A stretch of DNA of 64,000 nt from NCBI GenBank assembly GCA_030606285.1, contig JAUWGS010000004.1:73713-137712 (forward strand). The letters run 5' to 3'. This document shows, in pieces, positions 21,599 through 33,214 of the stretch. Under the pieces are notes generated by a model. That model saw nothing but the letters and a program-made list of their open reading frames with translations, searched no databases and was not told where the DNA came from. The translations under genes were made by a program, and so were the position numbers. How positions within the stretch are numbered: the stretch's first letter is position 1; the number at the start of each line of letters is the position of its first letter. The DNA is from Planctomycetales bacterium. GTDB taxonomy: Bacteria > 4484-113.

Positions 21599-21790
21599 CG
21601 CGCGCGGTTACTGATCGCTCTCGCCGCGCTTCGCCCATGATTCTCCGTGTGCCTCCGCGCGTGCGAGTACAAGATATGAGCGTGCGTAGCAAAGCTCCAT
21701 ATAAGGTATAATATTCTGGGCTGGCGTTGGTTTGCGCCGGCGTGGGGTGGTCAGATCTATTCGCGCAAGTTGCGCGAGGAGACGGACATT

Positions 21791-23908
21791 ATGAGAGGGA
21801 TTTTCCCAAGGGTTATTGCGAGCCTGTTTATTATCACGGCTATCATACTGCTCAACGGCTGCGGGGGAGGAAAGCAGCTCACAGCTCCGGGTATGCAACG
21901 CGTTGTACTCCCGGAGATAGATTTTAGTGTGACGCTTCCTCCAGGTGCGGACATTGACCCGGCTGACGTGTCCTTCGAGAGGTTGACTCTTGAGGAAGCG
22001 CTGTCCGGCGGCCGTGCCCCCAGTGATTTACCCGACGACTTCCGCGCGGTAGAAGCATTCGTGATACGTCCGGAAGACGCGGTATTTGACCTTCCAGCGC
22101 GCATCCGTCTCGTTCCGGAAGAGGAGTTGCCCGAAGGGACACGCCTATTCCTGTTCCGGGTAGGCGCTTCGCGGCGCTGTATTCCCATTGATGACGGATA
22201 CATCCGAGAGGACGGGAGCGTTTCCTTTGATACTTACGTTTTCGGATTCTTCATCGTTGCTGAGAACACACTAATCGCGCGGCCGTCCGACGCGTTTTTG
22301 TGTTACGGCTTCGCTGACGTGGGGGACGGGCCGATACCGCTTACCGTGGACTTCCAGGTGTTTTCGTTCGGAGGTGTTGAGCCGATCGAGTACATCTGGG
22401 ATTTCGATGACGGCAGTGGTTCGGTTATCGGTTCTGACGTGACGCACACCTTTTACGAGATAGGAGAATACGAGGTGTCCGTACGCGGAGAAGACGCGAT
22501 GGGAGCGATATCGCCAGGCTTCTCCACCATCATAGAGGCAACCAGCGAGTATGTGCCCCTTGATTCTGTCAGCGTGTACGTCTTCCCCACAGAGGCGTCT
22601 GCTCCGCTGGAACGGCACTTCATTCCGATGCTGGAGGGCGGTGTGCCGCCTTTGACCTGGGAATGGGAATTCTCGGATGGATACACCACGGACGAGCGCG
22701 ACCCCATTTACGAGTTCCCCCAGGCGGGGATCTACTCCGGTTCTGTGACGGTGACTGACGCCGTCCTGGATCAGGTTTCGAGTGACTTCGTGGCTGACCT
22801 GCGCCACGTCCATCTTAGCGCGGATCCCAACTTTGGCTACGCGCCGATGAGCGTGACGTTTGAGGTATCAGCGGAAGGTCTAAGCCCAGAGGCGACCATC
22901 GTTCTGGACTACGGTGACGGCGAAAGCGTAAGTGTGGACCTGGCTGGGGAGCCTTTGTTCGTGCACCACTACGATTCGGCAGGTACGTACCCGGCGCGGG
23001 TTGAAGCGTTTGAGATGTTCGAGGGCTCTCCGCGCTACGTGTACTCGCTGGTGATGAATATCGTTATCGTTGATGGACCGATTCCCATCATCTATTCCAT
23101 ATTCCAGCCCCAAGCGGAGCTGGGCGAGACTGTTACGGTCTACGGAGTTGATTTCGGTTTCGTTCAGGCCGAGGGCGAGACTGTCACCTTCGCGCCGGGA
23201 GTTCAGGCCGAGGTCCTCGAATGGAACGATACGTACATAGACGTAGTCGTGCCGGATGATGCGGTGGACGGGGACGTGTTCGTTACACGGGTCGATCAGG
23301 GGACATCGTACGAGAGTAACCGGATGTTCTTCAACGTGATCGAGCCGGGGCAGGAGAAGCAGCCTCCGATGATAATCCTGCTCTCCCCGAACCTGGGGCC
23401 GGTCGGAACGGTTGTCACAATCCTGGGACTGAACTTCGGTCCGACGCAGCTTGTTGGAGATAGAGTGTCGATCGGATACCAGCATCTGACAATCCACTCA
23501 TGGCAGGACGACACCATCGAGGCCGAGATTCCGCAGTTCGCGGAATCGGGCGATATAGTTGTGATGCACGATGGGATGACGAGCAACGGGTGGCACTTCG
23601 ATGTGGGCAACTTCCTGATTGACGACCCGCCGGAGATAACCAGCGTTGAACCGGCGACGGCAGCACGCGGTAACATGGTTTTTATTGAAGGCTGCAACTT
23701 CGGCTCATACGTGCCAGGTTCTGTGATATTCCTGGGTGCAGTTCCTATGGGAGTAATAAGCTGGGCGGAAAGCCAGATACTGGCGATTGTGCCGGAAAAG
23801 GGAAACGACGGCGACATTCGCGTGTTTCACCACGGGGCACTGAGCAACGGTGTGCCGTTCGTCGTGTGCCCGAATATGCCCGACCTCTATGGCCTGGAGC
23901 AGTTATAG
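21791..23908 (+). CDS. Large lipoprotein with PKD and IPT/TIG repeats
   Basis: 705 aa from the ATG at 21791. Its signal peptide ends in LNGCGGG (lipobox), so it should be membrane-anchored on the outside. After a ~140-residue N-terminal region come three PKD-type Ig folds (IWDFDDGSG, then WEFSDGYTTDE, then VLDYGDGES, each ending in a YxxxG-Y-x-V strand). Three IPT/TIG folds follow, marked by GETVTVYGVDFG, GTVVTILGLNFG and GNMVFIEGCNFG. These modules usually mediate surface adhesion or display; no enzymatic domain is visible. A TATAAT box sits at 21707-21712. It is followed by a related lipoprotein gene. Confidence 0.85.
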   Translation: MRGIFPRVIASLFIITAIILLNGCGGGKQLTAPGMQRVVLPEIDFSVTLPPGADIDPADVSFERLTLEEALSGGRAPSDLPDDFRAVEAFVIRPEDAVFDLPARIRLVPEEELPEGTRLFLFRVGASRRCIPIDDGYIREDGSVSFDTYVFGFFIVAENTLIARPSDAFLCYGFADVGDGPIPLTVDFQVFSFGGVEPIEYIWDFDDGSGSVIGSDVTHTFYEIGEYEVSVRGEDAMGAISPGFSTIIEATSEYVPLDSVSVYVFPTEASAPLERHFIPMLEGGVPPLTWEWEFSDGYTTDERDPIYEFPQAGIYSGSVTVTDAVLDQVSSDFVADLRHVHLSADPNFGYAPMSVTFEVSAEGLSPEATIVLDYGDGESVSVDLAGEPLFVHHYDSAGTYPARVEAFEMFEGSPRYVYSLVMNIVIVDGPIPIIYSIFQPQAELGETVTVYGVDFGFVQAEGETVTFAPGVQAEVLEWNDTYIDVVVPDDAVDGDVFVTRVDQGTSYESNRMFFNVIEPGQEKQPPMIILLSPNLGPVGTVVTILGLNFGPTQLVGDRVSIGYQHLTIHSWQDDTIEAEIPQFAESGDIVVMHDGMTSNGWHFDVGNFLIDDPPEITSVEPATAARGNMVFIEGCNFGSYVPGSVIFLGAVPMGVISWAESQILAIVPEKGNDGDIRVFHHGALSNGVPFVVCPNMPDLYGLEQL

Positions 23909-23993: not shown

Positions 23994-24047
23994 TCCCTTC
24001 AGCTTTGTGATATATGTTGAAACGGTTTCTGTAAGGGGATGTGTATT

Positions 24048-27000
24048 ATGGCAACCTGCAAGACCTTGTTGAGATGCGGAGTCCTACTGGCCCTGGCATC
24101 GCTCATCGGATTGCTACTCTCGTGTAGTGGCAAGAGGTCCGATGCGCCCGGCATCGTTACGCCTGAGAACACCATCGGTACGGAAGTGCCTGTGGCACCT
24201 GCTGACGGGCCTGATCTTGTAATGCTGAAGGATGCATCGGGTGCGCCGACGGGAGTGAAGGTCTATTGGTGGCGGGTGAACGAAGACGACGTCAGCGGCT
24301 ACTATCTGTATCGCGATACCGAGCCGATCACTGAGCCTGATCCGTCGCTTCGCGTTAACGAAGGCGCTCTCATTCCCCAACCGGACGAAGGTGTGCCCGC
24401 CGTTCTCTTCGACGACCTGTTTGAAGCGCAGGTGGGAATGACCTATTACTATCGTGTCTCGGCGGCGGACTTAGGTTGGGATGAGAGTCCGCTTTCTACA
24501 GAAAGGAGCATAACCATATCGTCCTTCATCATTGAGGGCTTCTCTCCTCTCAGTGGACCGGTGGGAACTTGGGTATTTATAACAGGTGAGTACTTCGGCG
24601 AATACAATGAGGAAACGGATGCAGTGTACTTCACCGGCGTAAAGAACGATAAAGGTCCCAGCGCGCTCTATGCGGCCAACATCCAGGCGGATATAATCTC
24701 ATGGGAGAGTTCGAGGATCGAAGCACGTGTTCGACTCGGAACCACTGTGGGCCCTATTACGGTCGTGTCCAATAACGCGCCGCAGCAGACTGCCAGAGAT
24801 TTCGAGTGCACTTCGCCCTACATTCTCTCAGTCTCTCCGGATCCAGCCATGGCGGGTGGCGAGATAGACTTCTTTGGCGCGAACTTTGGCCCGCCTGACG
24901 GAATGAACAGGCTAATGATAGACGACATTCCGTATGGTGGCCGGTTCAGCTTCTGGTCGGATGATCATGTGGTGGCGATATTGCCTGTTGACACACCGGA
25001 AGGCTTGGTCAAGCTTGAGCTTCTCATCGACAGCGAGTTTACCAATCCCTATTACTGCGATATCCTCCCGAGCAATGCGCCGTTCATCCAGAAGGTAATG
25101 CCAGGATACGGCGTGCCAGGCATCCCTGATGAAGGCTCAAATGTGGAGATTGTTGGCTGGAACTTCGGTGACATTCCGAACAATGTGATTGTGTGGTTCA
25201 ACGGCGTTGAGGTCTTTGGTGCGGATCTGACGTACCTTTCCGACACAGTCATTAATCTGACGGTCCCGGTTGGTGCTTCACGCATCGGTGAGGTGCATGT
25301 TATAGTTGACGACGGAATAACAGCCCTGGAGAGCAACTACTACCTGTACCATACGTTACCTAGTACATTGACGCAATTCGACGAAGGTATTGTTGCCGGT
25401 TGGGCGGTGGGCGAATACTCCGATGTGGCTCTGGGACCAGACGGTGAAGGTTTTGTTGTTTTTACGCAATCCAACGAGACCGGCGGGCCATCGTCTCTGT
25501 ACTTAGCTTACGATGACGGTGGTGGGTTGGTGATAGAAGAGCTTGTCTCTACGTACAAGGAATACCGCTACCCGCGCGTGGCTATGGATACAGGTGGCGT
25601 GGTTCACTTTGCCTATCAGGTCTACGGATGGGATGGTGAGGTGCGCTACGGAACATGGGATAACGGAAGCGTAACCGACGAGCTTGTTTACAGCGAAGGT
25701 TCTACGGACAATCCCGGCGCGTATCTGGATATGATAGTGCTGGATGACGGCTTGGGAGGGATTGATCGGATTCTCGTCTGGAGCAACGAGCTTGACGAAG
25801 TGATGTGCGGTCATATGCTCGACGGGGCTAGCAGCTGGACGATGGATATCGTTTACACTGCGGACACGGCGTACAACGAAGCGGCAGGTTACTACTGTTC
25901 CCTCGATTTGGTTGAAGCGCCCATCTTTGCGCCGCCACCACTGCGCGCTCCCAGCGCGATCGCCGGCAGCTATGCCGTCGGTGTCTCGTTTGGCCTATAC
26001 AGCGAGGATGGTGGAGCGCATTGGGAGGTTCGCGTCGCCGGTAGCGATGACCTGGATACTTGGTTTGCAGACACTGTCGGCTCGTCGATCGAGCCCGTAA
26101 CTGAGACAGTGATGCGTTGGAATCAGTCGTCGGTGGATCCCTTTATTCTGTGGTCCACCGGCAGCGCGGTGAACTGGTCATACTACGGCGAAGGATGGAC
26201 CACCGAAGAGGTGACCAGCGGGGATGGCCCTTACGGTGCCGCGCTCGGGCTCTATGTGGATATAAGCGGCGACGAGATTGCTTTCGGTCACAATGGTGGC
26301 GATGAGTTCTTCAGCGCCTATTTCGACTATGAAACCTGGGCTTGGACTGTCGAGACGACATCCACCGGTGATGGCCGCGTGGCTGAGCATGTCGGGCGCG
26401 GTGGAGCAGCCGCGTTTATCTCCAGTGACGAAGCAGCGCTCTCGGTCTACGACCCCGATATGCGGGACGTTGCGCTGGTGAATCTTGAGGGCATCAGCAG
26501 CGGAGTGACCGGCACGTGGCACGACATAGCGGACGGTTTTGCCACTCCCGGCTACGACCTGTCCAACCGTGCTCTCGTGGTCGACTCAAACGGTTACCCC
26601 CACATCGTCTTTGGTGACGTCGACCCGGTGACCGGTGAACGGACGCTATGGATGGCCCGTCCCCTTGACACCGGAGGTGGGGCTTCGCCGCCTTCACCAT
26701 TCGGCGGATGGGAATACGACCTCATTGACTCCGCGGTGAGTGGAACCCTGGGGCATGCGACGATGGCCGTTGACGCCTATGATGATTTCCACATCGCATA
26801 CCTCAAGGGTAGCGATGTCATGTATGTGAACGGTGGGTTTGGCGAGTTTGGCACACCCCAGTCCGTATTCGCTGGCGGTGCAATAACAACTGCACCCAGG
26901 ATTGCGCTGGGCTTATATTCCGCTTTGGACATAAACATCGTGGCACCGGAAGCAGGCAGCCCGTGGCGGCTCTGGCTCATTGAGTCCGAAAACGGTATGG

Positions 27001-27638
27001 CTTCGCACAGCCAGTCTCTTGCGATGTCGTGCGACTCCGCTATCACGCAGTACGACTTGGCAGTGCGGCATGACGGCGATGTTGTGGTGGTGGCATACCT
27101 TGACAGCCCGGACAACGAACTCACGATCTGGGAGGAGAGAAGTGGCCTCCAACACGGCTACGCCAGCACTACCGGCATGAACGCAGGAGTCACGCTGACG
27201 CTGGACGAGGATATGCACTGTTGTGTGACTCTGGCCGATCTTGAGAGCACGGGTGCAGGCTACATGCTGCACTGGCATGGCCCTTCGAATGACTACATCC
27301 TGGAGCAGTTCGCCCTTGATGCTGACGCTTCGCTGACGATGTCGCAGTGGCGAGGCGAATACGAGCCGTTCATAAGCTACCTCAACGAGGACTTCTACAT
27401 GGGTGAGGAATGGTTAACGACCTGTAATGCTTATGTAGACAGCGAGAACGGGGAAGCATACGTATACGAATTCTACGACGAGCAGAGAGTGCCGGTTCTA
27501 CATTCGGTTGACCCGTATATCTACCAGGAAGGATCAGGTATGGAAGTCGTCAAGTATCGCGTGGGAGTGTTCGCGTACCACGCGGATACGGAGAACTACC
27601 GCAATGTATTCGTCGTTGTAGGCCCTGAATGGGAGTAG
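24048..27638 (+). CDS. Very large surface lipoprotein with fibronectin-like and IPT/TIG domains
   Basis: 1196 aa from ATG 24048, preferred over ATG 24039 because AAGGGG (24033-24038) then has proper spacing. The signal peptide ends LLLSCSG (lipobox). Near the N-terminus is a fibronectin III-like segment (VKVYWWRVNEDDVSGYYLYRD, residues ~65-145). Three or four IPT/TIG folds follow (GTWVFITGEYFGEYNE, GGEIDFFGANFGPP, NVEIVGWNFGDI). The remaining ~750 residues carry many acidic, aromatic-rich repeats (VAMDTGGVVHFAYQVYGW-like and DLAVRHDGDVVVVAYLD-like) suggesting sialidase- or propeller-like blades. Function unknown; probably a surface protein related to its upstream neighbour. Confidence 0.8.
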   Translation: MATCKTLLRCGVLLALASLIGLLLSCSGKRSDAPGIVTPENTIGTEVPVAPADGPDLVMLKDASGAPTGVKVYWWRVNEDDVSGYYLYRDTEPITEPDPSLRVNEGALIPQPDEGVPAVLFDDLFEAQVGMTYYYRVSAADLGWDESPLSTERSITISSFIIEGFSPLSGPVGTWVFITGEYFGEYNEETDAVYFTGVKNDKGPSALYAANIQADIISWESSRIEARVRLGTTVGPITVVSNNAPQQTARDFECTSPYILSVSPDPAMAGGEIDFFGANFGPPDGMNRLMIDDIPYGGRFSFWSDDHVVAILPVDTPEGLVKLELLIDSEFTNPYYCDILPSNAPFIQKVMPGYGVPGIPDEGSNVEIVGWNFGDIPNNVIVWFNGVEVFGADLTYLSDTVINLTVPVGASRIGEVHVIVDDGITALESNYYLYHTLPSTLTQFDEGIVAGWAVGEYSDVALGPDGEGFVVFTQSNETGGPSSLYLAYDDGGGLVIEELVSTYKEYRYPRVAMDTGGVVHFAYQVYGWDGEVRYGTWDNGSVTDELVYSEGSTDNPGAYLDMIVLDDGLGGIDRILVWSNELDEVMCGHMLDGASSWTMDIVYTADTAYNEAAGYYCSLDLVEAPIFAPPPLRAPSAIAGSYAVGVSFGLYSEDGGAHWEVRVAGSDDLDTWFADTVGSSIEPVTETVMRWNQSSVDPFILWSTGSAVNWSYYGEGWTTEEVTSGDGPYGAALGLYVDISGDEIAFGHNGGDEFFSAYFDYETWAWTVETTSTGDGRVAEHVGRGGAAAFISSDEAALSVYDPDMRDVALVNLEGISSGVTGTWHDIADGFATPGYDLSNRALVVDSNGYPHIVFGDVDPVTGERTLWMARPLDTGGGASPPSPFGGWEYDLIDSAVSGTLGHATMAVDAYDDFHIAYLKGSDVMYVNGGFGEFGTPQSVFAGGAITTAPRIALGLYSALDINIVAPEAGSPWRLWLIESENGMASHSQSLAMSCDSAITQYDLAVRHDGDVVVVAYLDSPDNELTIWEERSGLQHGYASTTGMNAGVTLTLDEDMHCCVTLADLESTGAGYMLHWHGPSNDYILEQFALDADASLTMSQWRGEYEPFISYLNEDFYMGEEWLTTCNAYVDSENGEAYVYEFYDEQRVPVLHSVDPYIYQEGSGMEVVKYRVGVFAYHADTENYRNVFVVVGPEWE

Positions 27639-27726
27639 TTTACACTATCCTGTTCGCTGTTTGCGGTTTGGGTAAGGGATGTACCCAGGGCGGGCTTGAG
27701 CCGTTCCACCGTGTTCAGGAGTGACA

Positions 27727-28290
27727 ATGAGTATTGACCATGGACGCAGACGTTTCGCTTTGAAGCTCCTGGAGGCAGTGCTGGTGCTGGTGCTGTGTGT
27801 CGCTGCAATATTGGCAGCTGTCGCGCTTGCCAACGAGGGTACGAAGCCGGCCAAGAAAGAGATGACTCTTTTCAAGCCCGGTGCAGACGTGACCTTCGAG
27901 TTCTTTTTCGTTGTGCCACCGGGCTTTCATCTTGGCGAAGAGCCGCTGGCGGCGGTGAGCTTCGATAAGAAGAAGATAGAGAAGCTGCCCCTGACAATCA
28001 AGCTTCTGGAATACTTCTGGACGCGCGAGCAGCTGGCAGCCGAGGCGGCTGAGAGTGGCCACGATCAAACGACGGTAGCCGCAAAGGTGCCGGTGAAGCT
28101 CGACACCAAGTGCGCCACGGGTGAGCTGGCCATACCGGCCTCGGTGGACGTGTTCTACTGCAACGAGGAGGAGGGTTGGTGCACCTCGTCGCACTACGAC
28201 ACCATGCTGAAGATCAACGTGTCCGACGACAAGAAAGCGCTGAAGAAAGGTGCGCTCAAAGTGACGGTCGTCGTGACTCCAGAAGTCTGA
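27727..28290 (+). CDS. Exported protein resembling the DsbD N-terminal (alpha) domain
   Basis: 187 aa from ATG 27727 (AGGAGTGA upstream); a GTG two codons earlier is the alternative. It has an N-terminal signal or anchor (LLEAVLVLVLCVAAILAAVA). The mature domain has a beta-rich pattern with VPPGFHLGEEPLA and ends with VDVFYCNEEEGWCTSSHYD. The two cysteines separated by seven residues recall the redox pair of DsbD-alpha-like domains that pass electrons outside the membrane. The resemblance is by motif only. It lies just upstream of the promoter of the four-gene membrane operon. Confidence 0.6.
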   Translation: MSIDHGRRRFALKLLEAVLVLVLCVAAILAAVALANEGTKPAKKEMTLFKPGADVTFEFFFVVPPGFHLGEEPLAAVSFDKKKIEKLPLTIKLLEYFWTREQLAAEAAESGHDQTTVAAKVPVKLDTKCATGELAIPASVDVFYCNEEEGWCTSSHYDTMLKINVSDDKKALKKGALKVTVVVTPEV

Positions 28291-28311: not shown

Positions 28312-28340
28312 TTGACGCGCCTCTGCGCGCGGCGTATAAT
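28312..28340 (+). promoter_or_regulatory. Strong promoter of the four-gene membrane operon
   Basis: TTGACG (28312-28317), exactly 17 bp, TATAAT (28335-28340). The predicted start near 28347 leaves a short leader with GGGGAGG before the TTG at 28367. Confidence 0.75.
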
Positions 28341-28366
28341 CACCGAACTTCATGCGGGGAGGAATC

Positions 28367-29815
28367 TTGTTCGGAGAAAACCTCAGGAGTCAGCTGTGGG
28401 TGGCGCTGTTCGTTGCTGCGCTGATACTGACTCCCACGGTTTCTGCTGCGCAGACTGACGAAGCTGCAATCTCCTCGCCAGACAGAGAGCCTCCTCCGAT
28501 AACACCGCGCGTCCTGCTGGAATTCGAGCCCCCAACGGAGATTGAGGCGAGAGACCTCCCCAACGATGACGGCACGTCCATCCTGATCACGTGGCGGCGC
28601 TCGCCAAGCATGCCGGAGGACGTGCGCTACACGGTGTACTTCTCGGAGGGCGCTGCCGGTCCCTACAAGCCGCTACCGTTTGACTTCAGGCCCGTCGGTC
28701 TGGATGAGAGTATCATGGCCGACAACCTTCAGTACTTCCAGTACCGGCGGTCGCACAGGGATTACCAGTTCACAGTCATCGACTTCACTGCGTTTGACGC
28801 TGCGGCCTCGGGAGCTCACAAGCGTGAACTCAAGGAATACGAGAAGCGGTTGGAGGAAGGTATCGCGCCCGGCCCGGAGCCCGTACTATACGTGTACGAC
28901 TGGGATCAGTTCCATTTCAAGCTGGGCGTTACTTCCAATAGCGCCGTGCGGCTGTTTGACCCCGTGCTGCACGCTGAGCCGGTCACGCAATGGTTCGACT
29001 GGTCGAAGTTCAACAACATGTTTATGGCCGCGGCATTCCTGGTGGTGATTCTATTCTTCATTGAGACGGCGCGGCGGCGCAAGTTCTACATTCGCCGTAT
29101 AGCGGGGCTGGACGCGGTGGACGAGGCCATCGGCCGGGCGACTGAGATGGGTCGCCCAATCTTCTATCTATGCGGTCTCGACCCTATGACGACGGTTTCC
29201 ACGATTGCCGCTACGAACCTGCTGGGCCACGTTGCGAAGCATGTCGCCAACTACGAAAGCCAGATCAAAGTGCCTTGCTTCGACCCCATCGTGATGAGCG
29301 TTTGCCAGGAAACGGTGCGCGAGGCTTACTATGAAGCAGGGCGTCCCGACGCCTACAACTCCGACAATGTCTTTTTCATAACTAACGACCAGTTCAGTTA
29401 CGTGGCCGCGGTCAACGGGATGATGGTGCGCGAGCGCCCAGCGGCCAACTTCTACTTCGGCTTCTATTATGCTGAAAGCCTCTTGCTGGGCGAAGTGGGA
29501 CAGTCCACCGGCGCGATTCAAATTGCCGGTACCGACTCCACGGTGCAGATTCCCTTCTTCATCACTTCTTGTGACTATGTGCTGATTGGCGAGGAGCTTT
29601 ACGCCGCCAGTGCCTACATCTCGCGCGAGCCCAAGCTTCTCGGCAGCGTCAAGGCCAGCGATATGGCCAAAGCCGTCATTATCGTTGCCCTGCTGCTGGG
29701 TCTCGTATTTTCTGTGGTACTCCTGATCGCCGCGTTGGGTGACGGCGCCAGCGCTCTCGGCTGGCTGGGTGAGAAGATGGAGCACTTCATGCATCTGTTC
29801 AACGAGCATACGTAG
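28367..29815 (+). CDS. Membrane protein with fibronectin III-like ectodomain, first gene of a four-gene operon
   Basis: 482 aa from TTG 28367, which has GGAGG 4 nt upstream; ATG 28352 lies only ~5 nt past the predicted transcription start. Signal or anchor near residues 7-27. A FN3-like segment follows (SILITWRRSPSMPEDVRYTV, then YFSEGAAGPYKPL). After a membrane helix near 215-235 comes a conserved ~200-residue domain (GLDAVDEAIGRATEMGRPIF, FYLCGLDPMTTVSTIAATNL, GAIQIAGTDSTVQIPFFI). A second helix lies near the C-terminus. I do not know the function. The domain after the helix looks cytoplasmic and possibly ligand- or nucleotide-binding. The next gene starts 2 nt after the stop. Confidence 0.75.
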   Translation: MFGENLRSQLWVALFVAALILTPTVSAAQTDEAAISSPDREPPPITPRVLLEFEPPTEIEARDLPNDDGTSILITWRRSPSMPEDVRYTVYFSEGAAGPYKPLPFDFRPVGLDESIMADNLQYFQYRRSHRDYQFTVIDFTAFDAAASGAHKRELKEYEKRLEEGIAPGPEPVLYVYDWDQFHFKLGVTSNSAVRLFDPVLHAEPVTQWFDWSKFNNMFMAAAFLVVILFFIETARRRKFYIRRIAGLDAVDEAIGRATEMGRPIFYLCGLDPMTTVSTIAATNLLGHVAKHVANYESQIKVPCFDPIVMSVCQETVREAYYEAGRPDAYNSDNVFFITNDQFSYVAAVNGMMVRERPAANFYFGFYYAESLLLGEVGQSTGAIQIAGTDSTVQIPFFITSCDYVLIGEELYAASAYISREPKLLGSVKASDMAKAVIIVALLLGLVFSVVLLIAALGDGASALGWLGEKMEHFMHLFNEHT

Positions 29816-29817
29816 AT

Positions 29818-30531
29818 ATGATATTTCTGCGAAGACAATTGCCGGTTGCGATCGCATTTGTGCTGGGGATGTTCACGCTGATCATCTTCTACATTCCCGC
29901 CGCTCCGATGCAGGGAATTGGCGACCGGCTAAAGATATTTGTCATGATAATCGGCGCTTTCGCGATGCTGCTCGGCATCAACTCGATCCTGGGCCAGCAC
30001 ATCACGAAGATACGCAAGCGGCGTTCGGGCTACGGCTATTCATGGGTGCTCATCCTCGGTTTCGTGGCGATGATGATTGCATGGATTCCCTGGTGGTCAG
30101 CGCCACCGGAGGGCTTGGCGGTGTACTACCCATGGGGCGGCCTGGAGAACCCCCAGGGCGTCTTCTACTGGATGTTCTTCTGGATATTGGTGCCGATGCA
30201 GGCCACGATGTTCTCCATCCTCGCCTTCTTCATTGCGAGCGCCGCCTATCGCAGCTTCCGTGCCAAGACCCTAGAAGCAACTGTCCTGCTGATTGCCGCG
30301 GTTATAGTGATGCTGGGGCGTGTCCCGCTGGGAACATCTATGACCTCGTGGCTGTCTGACGTTGGCTTCTGGAGTAATCTGCGTCTGGAGACGATGACGA
30401 GCTGGCTGCTTAATGTCCCTAATGCTGCCGGATTTCGCGGTATCGTGCTGGGCGTTGCACTGGGCATTATCGCCACGAGCGTGCGCATCATCTTCGGCGT
30501 CGAGAAAACCTACTTGGGAGGTGGCGACTAG
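29818..30531 (+). CDS. Polytopic membrane protein, second gene of the operon
   Basis: 237 aa with about six hydrophobic segments and almost no soluble part. It starts MIFLRRQLPVAIAFVLGMFT. A conserved-looking loop has IRKRRSGYGYSWVL and an aromatic VYYPWGGLENPQGVFYWMFF stretch. No transporter or enzyme family is recognised. Its stop codon overlaps the next gene's GTG start by one base (TAGTG), so translation of the second and third genes is coupled. Confidence 0.75.
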   Translation: MIFLRRQLPVAIAFVLGMFTLIIFYIPAAPMQGIGDRLKIFVMIIGAFAMLLGINSILGQHITKIRKRRSGYGYSWVLILGFVAMMIAWIPWWSAPPEGLAVYYPWGGLENPQGVFYWMFFWILVPMQATMFSILAFFIASAAYRSFRAKTLEATVLLIAAVIVMLGRVPLGTSMTSWLSDVGFWSNLRLETMTSWLLNVPNAAGFRGIVLGVALGIIATSVRIIFGVEKTYLGGGD

Positions 30532-31367
30532 TGGTTCGCACCTGGGAACGCTACCTTCTCTACGCATTGATTGTGCTGGCGGTGTTCCTGCCGCTCATCT
30601 TCCCCTTTGACGTCTGGCCGAATCTCCCGACCCGGGAAGTCCTGGGCGTCTTCAACACTATCGATGCCTTGCAGCCGGGCGACACAATCGTGGTTGCAGT
30701 GGACTTCGATCCATCGAGCGAGCCCGAACTCTATCCGATGCTTCTGGCCGTTCTCCGCCACGCCTTCAGCAAGGATCTTCATGTCATCGGGATTAATCTC
30801 TTCGGTCCCGCTGGCACGGGATTGGGCGTGAAGGCGCTGAGTGATGTTGGTGAAGAGATGGGCAAGGTTGACAGCGAGGACTATGTTATGTTGGGTTTCA
30901 AGCCCAATCTTCCGGCGGTAATCTCCCAGCTCAACAGTGATATCAGGGAGATGTACCGGAGCGATGCGAACGGCAGATCCACAGCCGACATGGCCATCCT
31001 GCAGCGGACGCCTAAGTTCCAGGGCAACATCAAGTACATGGTTGATCTCGCAGCAGGCGAGACGGTTCGGCCATGGGTGGCCTTTGGGTCGGCGCCGGGG
31101 GGATATCCCATGGGTGCGGGCTGCACCGCGGTATCCTTCGCCGACTATTTCGCCTTCTACCAGTCAGGCCAGATTAATGGTCTGATGGGTGGACTGAAAG
31201 CTGCTGCAGAATACGAAGAACTCATAGGAGAGAAAGGCGCTGCCTCGGCCGGTATGAACAGCCAGTCAATAGTGCACGTGCTTCTCGTGCTCTTCATCAT
31301 CGTTGGCAATATCATCTTCTTCAAGACACTGCTGCAGAAACGGGCCGAAGCGGGAGGCAATGCCTGA
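30531..31367 (+). CDS. Membrane protein with an extracytoplasmic domain, third gene of the operon
   Basis: 278 aa, GTG start with TTGGGAGG upstream. A helix at residues ~6-25 is followed by a ~200-residue soluble alpha/beta domain (TIDALQPGDTIVVAVDFDPS, AFSKDLHVIGINLFGPAGTG, YVMLGFKPNLPAVISQLNSD) and a final helix near 245-268. The domain has glycine-rich turns after predicted strands, as in Rossmann-like or periplasmic binding folds, but no known motif. Its last base overlaps the start of the fourth gene (TGATG). Confidence 0.75.
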   Translation: MVRTWERYLLYALIVLAVFLPLIFPFDVWPNLPTREVLGVFNTIDALQPGDTIVVAVDFDPSSEPELYPMLLAVLRHAFSKDLHVIGINLFGPAGTGLGVKALSDVGEEMGKVDSEDYVMLGFKPNLPAVISQLNSDIREMYRSDANGRSTADMAILQRTPKFQGNIKYMVDLAAGETVRPWVAFGSAPGGYPMGAGCTAVSFADYFAFYQSGQINGLMGGLKAAAEYEELIGEKGAASAGMNSQSIVHVLLVLFIIVGNIIFFKTLLQKRAEAGGNA

Positions 31368-32140
31368 TGGCTACCTTCATCGGCACCTGGATCGCAGCAG
31401 GCCTGACCCTGATGATTCTTTCGTTCCTGTACAAGGACAATCCTTTCTTCCGCTTTGCCGAACACTTATATGTGGGTGTCTCGAACGCGTACGTCGTGTG
31501 GATCGTGTGGGCAACGATTGTCCTGCCCGATTTCATTGGAAGGGTGTTTGTGAACCTCGAGGGCGTGGAGACGTGGAGGCCAGACTTCTGGTTCCTCATC
31601 CCCGGCATACTGGGCCTGATAATACTCACCCGGATGATTCCGGCCATCGAGTGGATGAGCCGGTGGGCGCTGGCGTTCATTGTGGGGTGGGGCGCAGGTT
31701 TCATCATCGGGCCGACGCTTAATAGCTACTTACTGGCTCAACTCTATGCCAGCTTCCCCTGGGTCAATATGCAGCCGTATCTGGGCGCGCCGGCGGCTGA
31801 GTATATCCCCGCGCTCATCAATGCGATCATCCTCTTCATCTGCGTGGTCACGGTGCTCGTGTACTTCTTCTTCAGCTTCGAGCATAAGGGTGTCATCGGT
31901 GGCGCTGCGAAGATTGGCATCTGGGTACTCATGGTCGCTTTCGGCGCCAGCTTTGGCTCAACGGTGATGGCGCGTATCTCGCTATTCATCGGCCGTGCGC
32001 GCTTCCTGGTGCAGGACGCCGAACCTGCAGGCCACGCCTTCAGCGTCCTTCTCACAATCGGCATCCTCATCGTTATCATCGCCGCCATCGTGGCCCGCCG
32101 CCGTCAGCCCCCCGCCGAAGAAGGCGAATCCGCTGAGTAA
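31367..32140 (+). CDS. Polytopic membrane protein, fourth gene of the operon
   Basis: 257 aa with six or seven hydrophobic segments. It starts MATFIGTWIAAGLTLMILSF, with the segment FAEHLYVGVSNAYVVWIVWA next, and ends in a short Arg/Pro/Glu-rich tail. Its ATG shares a base with the stop of the third gene. Together the operon encodes two multi-helix proteins and two proteins with large soluble domains, consistent with one membrane complex. Function unknown. Confidence 0.75.
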   Translation: MATFIGTWIAAGLTLMILSFLYKDNPFFRFAEHLYVGVSNAYVVWIVWATIVLPDFIGRVFVNLEGVETWRPDFWFLIPGILGLIILTRMIPAIEWMSRWALAFIVGWGAGFIIGPTLNSYLLAQLYASFPWVNMQPYLGAPAAEYIPALINAIILFICVVTVLVYFFFSFEHKGVIGGAAKIGIWVLMVAFGASFGSTVMARISLFIGRARFLVQDAEPAGHAFSVLLTIGILIVIIAAIVARRRQPPAEEGESAE

Positions 32141-32163
32141 CCTGTTCGCGCGACATTGCTGAT

Positions 32164-32192
32164 TTGCCATACTAATACCGACAGGCTACAAT
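32164..32192 (+). promoter_or_regulatory. Promoter of truB
   Basis: TTGCCA (32164-32169), 17-bp spacer, TACAAT (32187-32192). The ATG at 32207 lies only about 8 nt past the predicted transcription start. Confidence 0.55.
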
Positions 32193-32206
32193 CCACTGCC
32201 CTCACC

Positions 32207-33214
32207 ATGGCCAGCAACAATCCAGGCGGGAAGCTGAGCGGCTTTATCAACATCAACAAGCCGGTCGGCCTGACGTCGTTTCAGGTCATCACCCAGCTCC
32301 GGCGCATCCTGGGCATCCGCAAGATGGGGCATTCCGGTGTGCTGGACAAGCCCGCAACGGGCGTTCTCCCCATCGGTGTGAACCGTGCAACCAAGCTGTT
32401 CAGCCACTTTGCGGACTTCCGCAAGGTGTATCTCACAACTCTGCTATTCGGCTTCTCGACCACGACGGATGACATAGTCGGCGAGATTATCTCCACCGGC
32501 AAGACCGGCAGCGTGACCGAGAGAGACGTGCAACTAGCGCTCAAGCAGTTCATTGGCGAGATCTCCCAGCGCCCGCCGAGATTCTCCACGACGAAGGTGG
32601 ACGGCAAGGAGTTTTACCGGATAGCCCTGGCAGGCAAGGAAGTCCCGTACAAGCTTAAGCGCGTCACCGTCGAGGATATCAAGTTCGTCTCGTATTCGGA
32701 CGGCCCATCGGCAGATGAACTCCTCGGCTCCCGGCCAGAGCTTTCCGCAGAGCCAACGAGCCTTCCGCCGCTAAAGCTGTTCACGGTGCGCATCTCGTGC
32801 CGCGGCGGCTTCTACGTGCGCAGCCTGGCAAGGGACCTTGGTGAGCTTCTAGAGACGCAGGGCTGCGTTTTTTCGCTGGTACGTGAGCAGGTGGGACCGT
32901 TCCGCGTGGAGGACGCGCACACGCTCGAAGAGATGGAGGATCTGGCAGCGGAGGGCAAGGAGCAGGACGCCCTGCAGCCAATGGGCGTCATTGCCGAGCC
33001 CGAACGCACGGTCGCGCTTGACGCGCCCAGCATCGCCCAGCTTGCGCGCGGGATGCCAGTCGTTGTGAAGGCGCATTTCCTCGAAGCTGAAGTCCGCAAG
33101 CGCGGGGCAAGGCTGTTCGTGACTGGACCCGACGGTGAACTCGCGGCCATCGTGGAAGTTGCGCAGCCTATAGGCGACAACCTGCCGCTTCATCCGCGAA
33201 GGCTGTTGCTGTGA
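32207..33214 (+). CDS. truB: tRNA pseudouridine-55 synthase TruB
   Basis: Makes pseudouridine 55 in the tRNA T-loop. 335 aa from ATG 32207, which fits the promoter better than the TTG at 32156. Motifs: NINKPVGLTSFQVI, then KMGHSGVLDKPATGVLPIGV with the catalytic Asp (the usual form is GHxGTLDPxATG), TTTDDIVGEI, and QRPPRFSTTKVDGKEFY. CRGGFYVRSLARDLGE and a C-terminal PUA-like segment complete it. The catalytic loop is somewhat divergent (LDK for LDP). In many genomes truB is next to rbfA or ribF; here it is alone. Confidence 0.88.
   Translation: MASNNPGGKLSGFININKPVGLTSFQVITQLRRILGIRKMGHSGVLDKPATGVLPIGVNRATKLFSHFADFRKVYLTTLLFGFSTTTDDIVGEIISTGKTGSVTERDVQLALKQFIGEISQRPPRFSTTKVDGKEFYRIALAGKEVPYKLKRVTVEDIKFVSYSDGPSADELLGSRPELSAEPTSLPPLKLFTVRISCRGGFYVRSLARDLGELLETQGCVFSLVREQVGPFRVEDAHTLEEMEDLAAEGKEQDALQPMGVIAEPERTVALDAPSIAQLARGMPVVVKAHFLEAEVRKRGARLFVTGPDGELAAIVEVAQPIGDNLPLHPRRLLL

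Follow-up and report, generated by a model that had tools for sequence, protein, structure and literature searches.

The described systems closest to the locus reported here resemble it in parts. DUF6754 (PF20539) is a protein family whose name gives no function, and our literature search found neither designation named anywhere, with most subscription papers beyond its reach. The GlmL/MutL accessory protein of methylaspartate mutase (PF13941, TIGR01319, NF040745) has an ASKHA core, Rnf and Na+-NQR contain the domains RnfC_N and NqrA_N, and in energy-coupling factor (ECF) transporters one shared energizing unit serves several membrane modules. Here we analyzed a 64-kb stretch of Planctomycetales DNA (contig JAUWGS010000004.1; the window, meaning the whole stretch), in which four genes, A, B, C and D, lie together on the + strand at 28367–32140. 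We propose that A–D form the membrane half of an eight-gene set, H-G-E-F-A-B-C-D, to which E, F and often G and H belong, and whose likely cytoplasmic half includes E, an ATP-binding protein resembling a glutamate-mutase helper. A is a clear DUF6754 member; B, C, D and F, its constant partners, have no Pfam family. A contig search with the window A protein returned one relative, L006, whose A protein is 82% identical. The features of the window operon are as follows:

28312–28340, + strand: promoter TTGACG-17-TATAAT, 11/12 consensus, hexamers kept in L006
28356–28362, + strand: Shine–Dalgarno-like GGGGAGG of gene A, from sequence reading and comparison with L006
28367–29815, + strand: gene A, with predicted signal/transmembrane (TM) segment, FN3 ectodomain, TM segment, cytosolic DUF6754 and TM segment; matches PF20539 and, by profile, titin FN3
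28985–29719, + strand: DUF6754 domain in A, residues 212–456 numbered from ATG 28352
29818–30531, + strand: gene B, polytopic, 6 hydrophobic segments, without Pfam family
30531–31367, + strand: gene C, TM segment, soluble domain of ~200 residues predicted to lie outside, TM segment; without Pfam family
31367–32140, + strand: gene D, polytopic, 7 hydrophobic segments, without Pfam family

Presence was counted in 385 genomes spread across bacteria and in 14 named controls. PF20539 occurred in 106 of the 385 and in none of the controls (0/14); within the phylum to which the window belongs, 9 of 10 genomes had it. Gene order was read in 59 genomes — L006 plus 58 taken from the matches listed, hence the better-scoring ones — covering 45 GTDB families plus L006. 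B-C-D directly followed A in 71 of 82 A genes, and an ABCD block was present in 56 of the 59 genomes and in 44 GTDB families (L006 counted as one); G129, G144 and G157 had no strict block. When intervening genes were allowed, A-B-C-D was found in 57 genomes. Median gaps were 11 nt between A and B and −1 nt at both B-C and C-D. The A-B-C-D order is old. Lack of a conserved order, which the initial annotation had named as a ground for rejecting its view, was thus not found, and its reading of these genes as a closely joined membrane operon whose function is unknown is supported.

E and F recur directly upstream of A. The strict order E-F-A-B-C-D was found in 20 of the 59 genomes (15 families), or in 22 with intervening genes allowed, and H-G-E-F-A-B-C-D, read by the looser rule, in 14 genomes from 11 families. 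G and H, both small and encoded upstream of E, were present in 22 and 17 of the 25 loci with E, respectively, as well as at L089 and L107, where G stands directly before A. Families other than A–H never recurred in more than 5 genomes of neighborhoods. Across the 385 genomes, F was found in 100 of the 106 A genomes versus 1 of 279 others (a weak match, E-value 3e-4), D in 105 versus 5, and long E in 96 versus 2; a further 14 genomes, 5 with A and 9 without, held only weaker or truncated E matches. We give these counts more weight than P values because Fisher values ignore shared ancestry.

In seven genomes (L117–L123), diverged E-F fusions form single frames of 945–1034 aa, E part first and F part second, at sites away from ABCD; from this arrangement, E and F probably act together. 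At L119 and L120 (two genomes, one family), the fusion adjoins genes that by sequence reading resemble those of KDO (lipopolysaccharide) synthesis. On contig C29 of the window's own genome, H, G and E are followed by a gene for a membrane protein of 278 aa and then by F. The 278-aa protein (L097:11644–12480) is polytopic, and a 202-aa polytopic protein occupies the same place between E and F at L091.

Copy numbers of the two halves differ. At least two A copies were present in 52 of the 106 A genomes (copy numbers recorded up to 6). Full-length stand-alone F, by contrast, was single in every genome listed but G320, with fragments and fusions excluded. A further complete ABCD block lies on contig C27 of the window's genome, and tandem blocks exist, three of them consecutive at both L055 and L057. 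At L104:1663–7708 (G129), four C genes cluster with one A, one B and one D, as if the outward subunit alone had multiplied.

E is a GlmL/MutL-type ASKHA protein of ~600–620 aa that matches PF13941 (MutL) at an E-value of 1.1e-128; the two E proteins scored against it reached 430.2 and 417.8 bits. Its segments DCGSTTTK, DIGGATTD and GSGG, invariant in 23/23, are presumably the ASKHA ATP-binding signatures. F (~376 aa) is assigned to no Pfam family and resembles barrel-sandwich and KOW proteins: 19 of 28 members have an RnfC_N-like barrel-sandwich (best RnfC_N match 9.4e-6), 7/28 match NQRA_N, and 4/28 have a KOW-like end. G gave no Pfam match; H has two hydrophobic segments, and one member weakly matches a bacterial PH domain (0.0065). 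A search of solved structures returned nothing for DUF6754 or E, a chance-level match for C and weak matches for F.

In the membrane half, A matches DUF6754 at an E-value of 3.2e-113 (377.5 bits against a gathering cut-off of 27), as does every one of the 41 A proteins aligned above this cut-off. The FN3-like ectodomain proposed by the initial annotation was corroborated, as the A-family profile matches titin FN3 domains at 4.8e-21 in the solved-structure search and 5 of 41 members match Pfam fn3 (best 3e-11). TM-like segments lie near residues 15, 222 and 441 of A and near residues 8 and 246 of C, and B and D contain six and seven hydrophobic stretches, in agreement with the earlier division into two polytopic proteins and two membrane proteins with large soluble domains. 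B, C and D fall in no Pfam or NCBIfam family at curated cut-off, and aligned relatives of B (27), C (37) and D (21) gave no consistent family matches. Homology to a characterized transporter or secretion complex, which the annotation had named as a ground for rejecting its view, was found for none of A–D in family searches. Lysine and arginine residues (K+R) around the C TM segments number on average 3.0 and 3.8 per 12 residues at the ends versus 1.4 and 1.3 on the domain side (70 of 71 operons), and in A 4.4 after the second TM segment versus 1.5 before it (16 of 71 operons placed). By the positive-inside rule alone, C would have both ends inside and its soluble domain outside, and DUF6754 would be cytosolic.

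The outward and inward parts of A differ in conservation. Mean pairwise identity between operons is 23% for the ectodomain and 61% for DUF6754, and in 17 same-genome A pairs it is 32% and 65% (the L105 pair having almost no ectodomain to compare). DUF6754 carries many invariant polar residues and an almost invariant Cys-Asp, after which comes [YF]xLIGEE; of the 82 A genes, 81 have the Cys and 79 the Cys-Asp. Common origin of subunits was considered and rejected, with hhalign probabilities of 1.0 for B and D, and, for A and C, 2.0 over whole proteins and 0.5 over soluble domains. The same A–C comparison failed to bear out homology behind the glycine-rich segment that had been described as recurring in both proteins.

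Our preferred reading, which we regard as evenly poised between right and wrong, is that A–D form one membrane complex driven by cytosolic E-F, most likely for ATP-driven envelope transport, insertion or assembly. A would place FN3 outside and DUF6754 inside, and C its soluble domain outside, A and C being the parts that vary; B and D would form the membrane core. E would bind ATP, and F would link E to the membrane complex. E-F would dock on the complex, most plausibly on the conserved face of DUF6754, since no other cytosolic part is as well conserved, and would drive it by ATP hydrolysis. G and H, both small, would often be part of the machine. A single E-F unit would usually serve between one and six, or even more, ABCD modules with differing outward parts, so that the modules would determine what is acted on, with energy or assembly coming from E-F. 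The initial annotation had already proposed a single membrane complex: the order of the genes, their overlapping junctions, their co-occurrence and the correlation of their divergence argue for it indirectly, but its four genes are only half of the system.

Several observations weigh against this reading. Of the 106 A genomes, 6 are without F (G009, G038, G066, G085, G225 and G263) and 10 without long E. The four genes A–D diverge in a correlated way (Mantel r of their distances 0.61–0.72 over 71 operons, 0/1000 permutations), as expected for parts that stay together, but shared descent gives the same sign and would produce the correlation without contact. The motif rule placed 16 of 71 operons, and the sidedness of DUF6754 depends on these. 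Both A proteins of L105 (266 and 276 aa), in two ABCD blocks, consist almost only of DUF6754, without an ectodomain. Predicted structures of A and C, made from the window and L006 sequences only, had mean pLDDT of 35.5 and 42.3 and were unusable, and nothing in family searches with B, C or D pointed to a substrate, to a cofactor or to homology with a transporter. ABCD is also unlinked to E-F in the window's genome and in most of the 59, which, with the E-F fusions lying away from ABCD, would suit a self-sufficient ABCD and an independent E-F system of similar species distribution. We judge such independence very unlikely, as it must account for F being all but confined to A genomes and for E-F standing directly before A-B-C-D in a third of the neighborhood genomes (20/59).

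Other readings assign E or the complex a different task. That E is simply the glutamate-mutase accessory GlmL, beside A–D by chance, has in its favor the strong PF13941 match and GlmL as the best NCBIfam model; we find it scarcely credible. Two E proteins score 242.6 and 225 bits against the GlmL equivalog cut-off of 475, and 192.7 and 160.6 bits against the GlmL-family cut-off of 204.05. GlmE (PF06368) exceeds 300 bits in 7 of the 385 genomes, an eighth clearing the cut-off by a narrow margin at 26.7, and in all 5 genomes where it exceeds 700 bits its neighbor is a short GlmL-like match. Among 98 long-E genomes, GlmE is found in one (G127), beside a short GlmL-like match and on a different contig from long E. 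E shares the ASKHA core with GlmL/MutL over ~470 residues but, unlike it, has ~100 extra C-terminal residues, scores below cut-off and goes with F and A–D rather than with GlmE. By score and co-occurrence, E is not a glutamate-mutase partner. PMC5167688 mentions glutamate mutase and a mismatch-repair MutL, neither of which bears on the A–H system.

The strongest rival, because the DUF6754 Cys is so consistently kept, is that A–D form a membrane-bound enzyme with Cys-Asp and Glu-Glu as catalytic residues, on which E would act as activase or as repair chaperone. BcrA/D and other ASKHA proteins are activators of dehydratase-type enzymes, and both the membership of E in the GlmL family and the many invariant polar residues of DUF6754 are consistent with this role. 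We nevertheless consider it unlikely, if a serious contender, since no cofactor motif or enzyme family was found in A–D and no enzyme gene is shared by the neighborhoods of more than 5 genomes. A sensor or signaling complex, in which the variable ectodomains of A and C would sense the outside and DUF6754 would relay to E-F, fits a variable exterior over a conserved interior and multiple copies per genome; it appears improbable to us, as no regulator gene family recurs nearby (families judged by eye) and a receptor would not usually have two polytopic partners.

At the level of the window, the proposed promoter proved sound. It is the sole exact match to its own pattern across the 64 kb; with up to one mismatch allowed, the pattern matches 5 times versus 0.25 expected, and no shuffle reached 5. 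Both hexamers are identical in L006, and the spacer has diverged. L006 also bears on the start of A: it retains GGGAGG and TTG, and because it has ACG at the position of the window's ATG 28352, the start assumed earlier becomes less likely and A probably begins at TTG 28367. The junctions read as originally described, with 2 nt between the A stop (TAG 29813–29815) and the B start (ATG 29818), TAGTG at B-C (TAG 30529–30531 overlapping GTG 30531–30533) and TGATG at C-D (TGA 31365–31367 overlapping ATG 31367–31369).

Upstream, 27721–28290 encodes a secreted protein of 189 aa that carries a conserved YC...GWC segment. Its L006 counterpart is 63% identical, and no other genome keeps it beside A; its earlier description as DsbD-alpha-like found no support, as it gave no Pfam match at E-value ≤1 and no DsbD in a PDB search to E-value 10. 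Two large secreted TIG-domain proteins lie further upstream (24039–27638 and 21770–23908), the second also with PKD domains; one of them, of 1199 aa, adjoins the operon also in L006 only. Downstream, a frame named from sequence reading as a TruB-like tRNA pseudouridine synthase (32156–33214) starts 15 nt after D, has a promoter-like site at 32164–32192 (10/12), and lies behind D in no genome but that of the window and L006.

Comparison with known systems leaves the set on its own. F shares a barrel-sandwich-like stretch with Rnf and Na+-NQR; unlike in those complexes, no Rnf/Nqr membrane subunit or iron–sulfur domain was matched among A–F, F ends KOW-like, and B and D match no such subunit, so that the likeness is confined to the barrel-sandwich part of F. 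The shared-engine layout recalls ECF transporters by analogy only, as A–F have neither an ABC ATPase nor a sequence relation to them. An anti-phage defense system was also considered and rejected; a PADLOC search with A–D, E and F gave a single match, D to ZorA at 0.057. Viral contigs searched with A, F, D, B and C alignments yielded no relatives, and plasmids searched for A yielded none. No known system compared here shares the gene set, its newness being a verdict by exclusion.

Collectively, these results group eight genes into one testable unit. We tentatively raise the possibility, which we think less probable than not by some distance, that they represent a previously undescribed and widespread class of ATP-driven envelope machine, driven by an ASKHA actin-fold ATPase in place of an ABC or AAA+ protein, in which interchangeable ABCD modules would share one E-F engine. 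For the organisms that carry it, the presence of E as a long GlmL relative should not be taken as evidence of glutamate fermentation. Because the genes are conserved to such depth, across 44 GTDB families, a basic function in the envelope is suggested.

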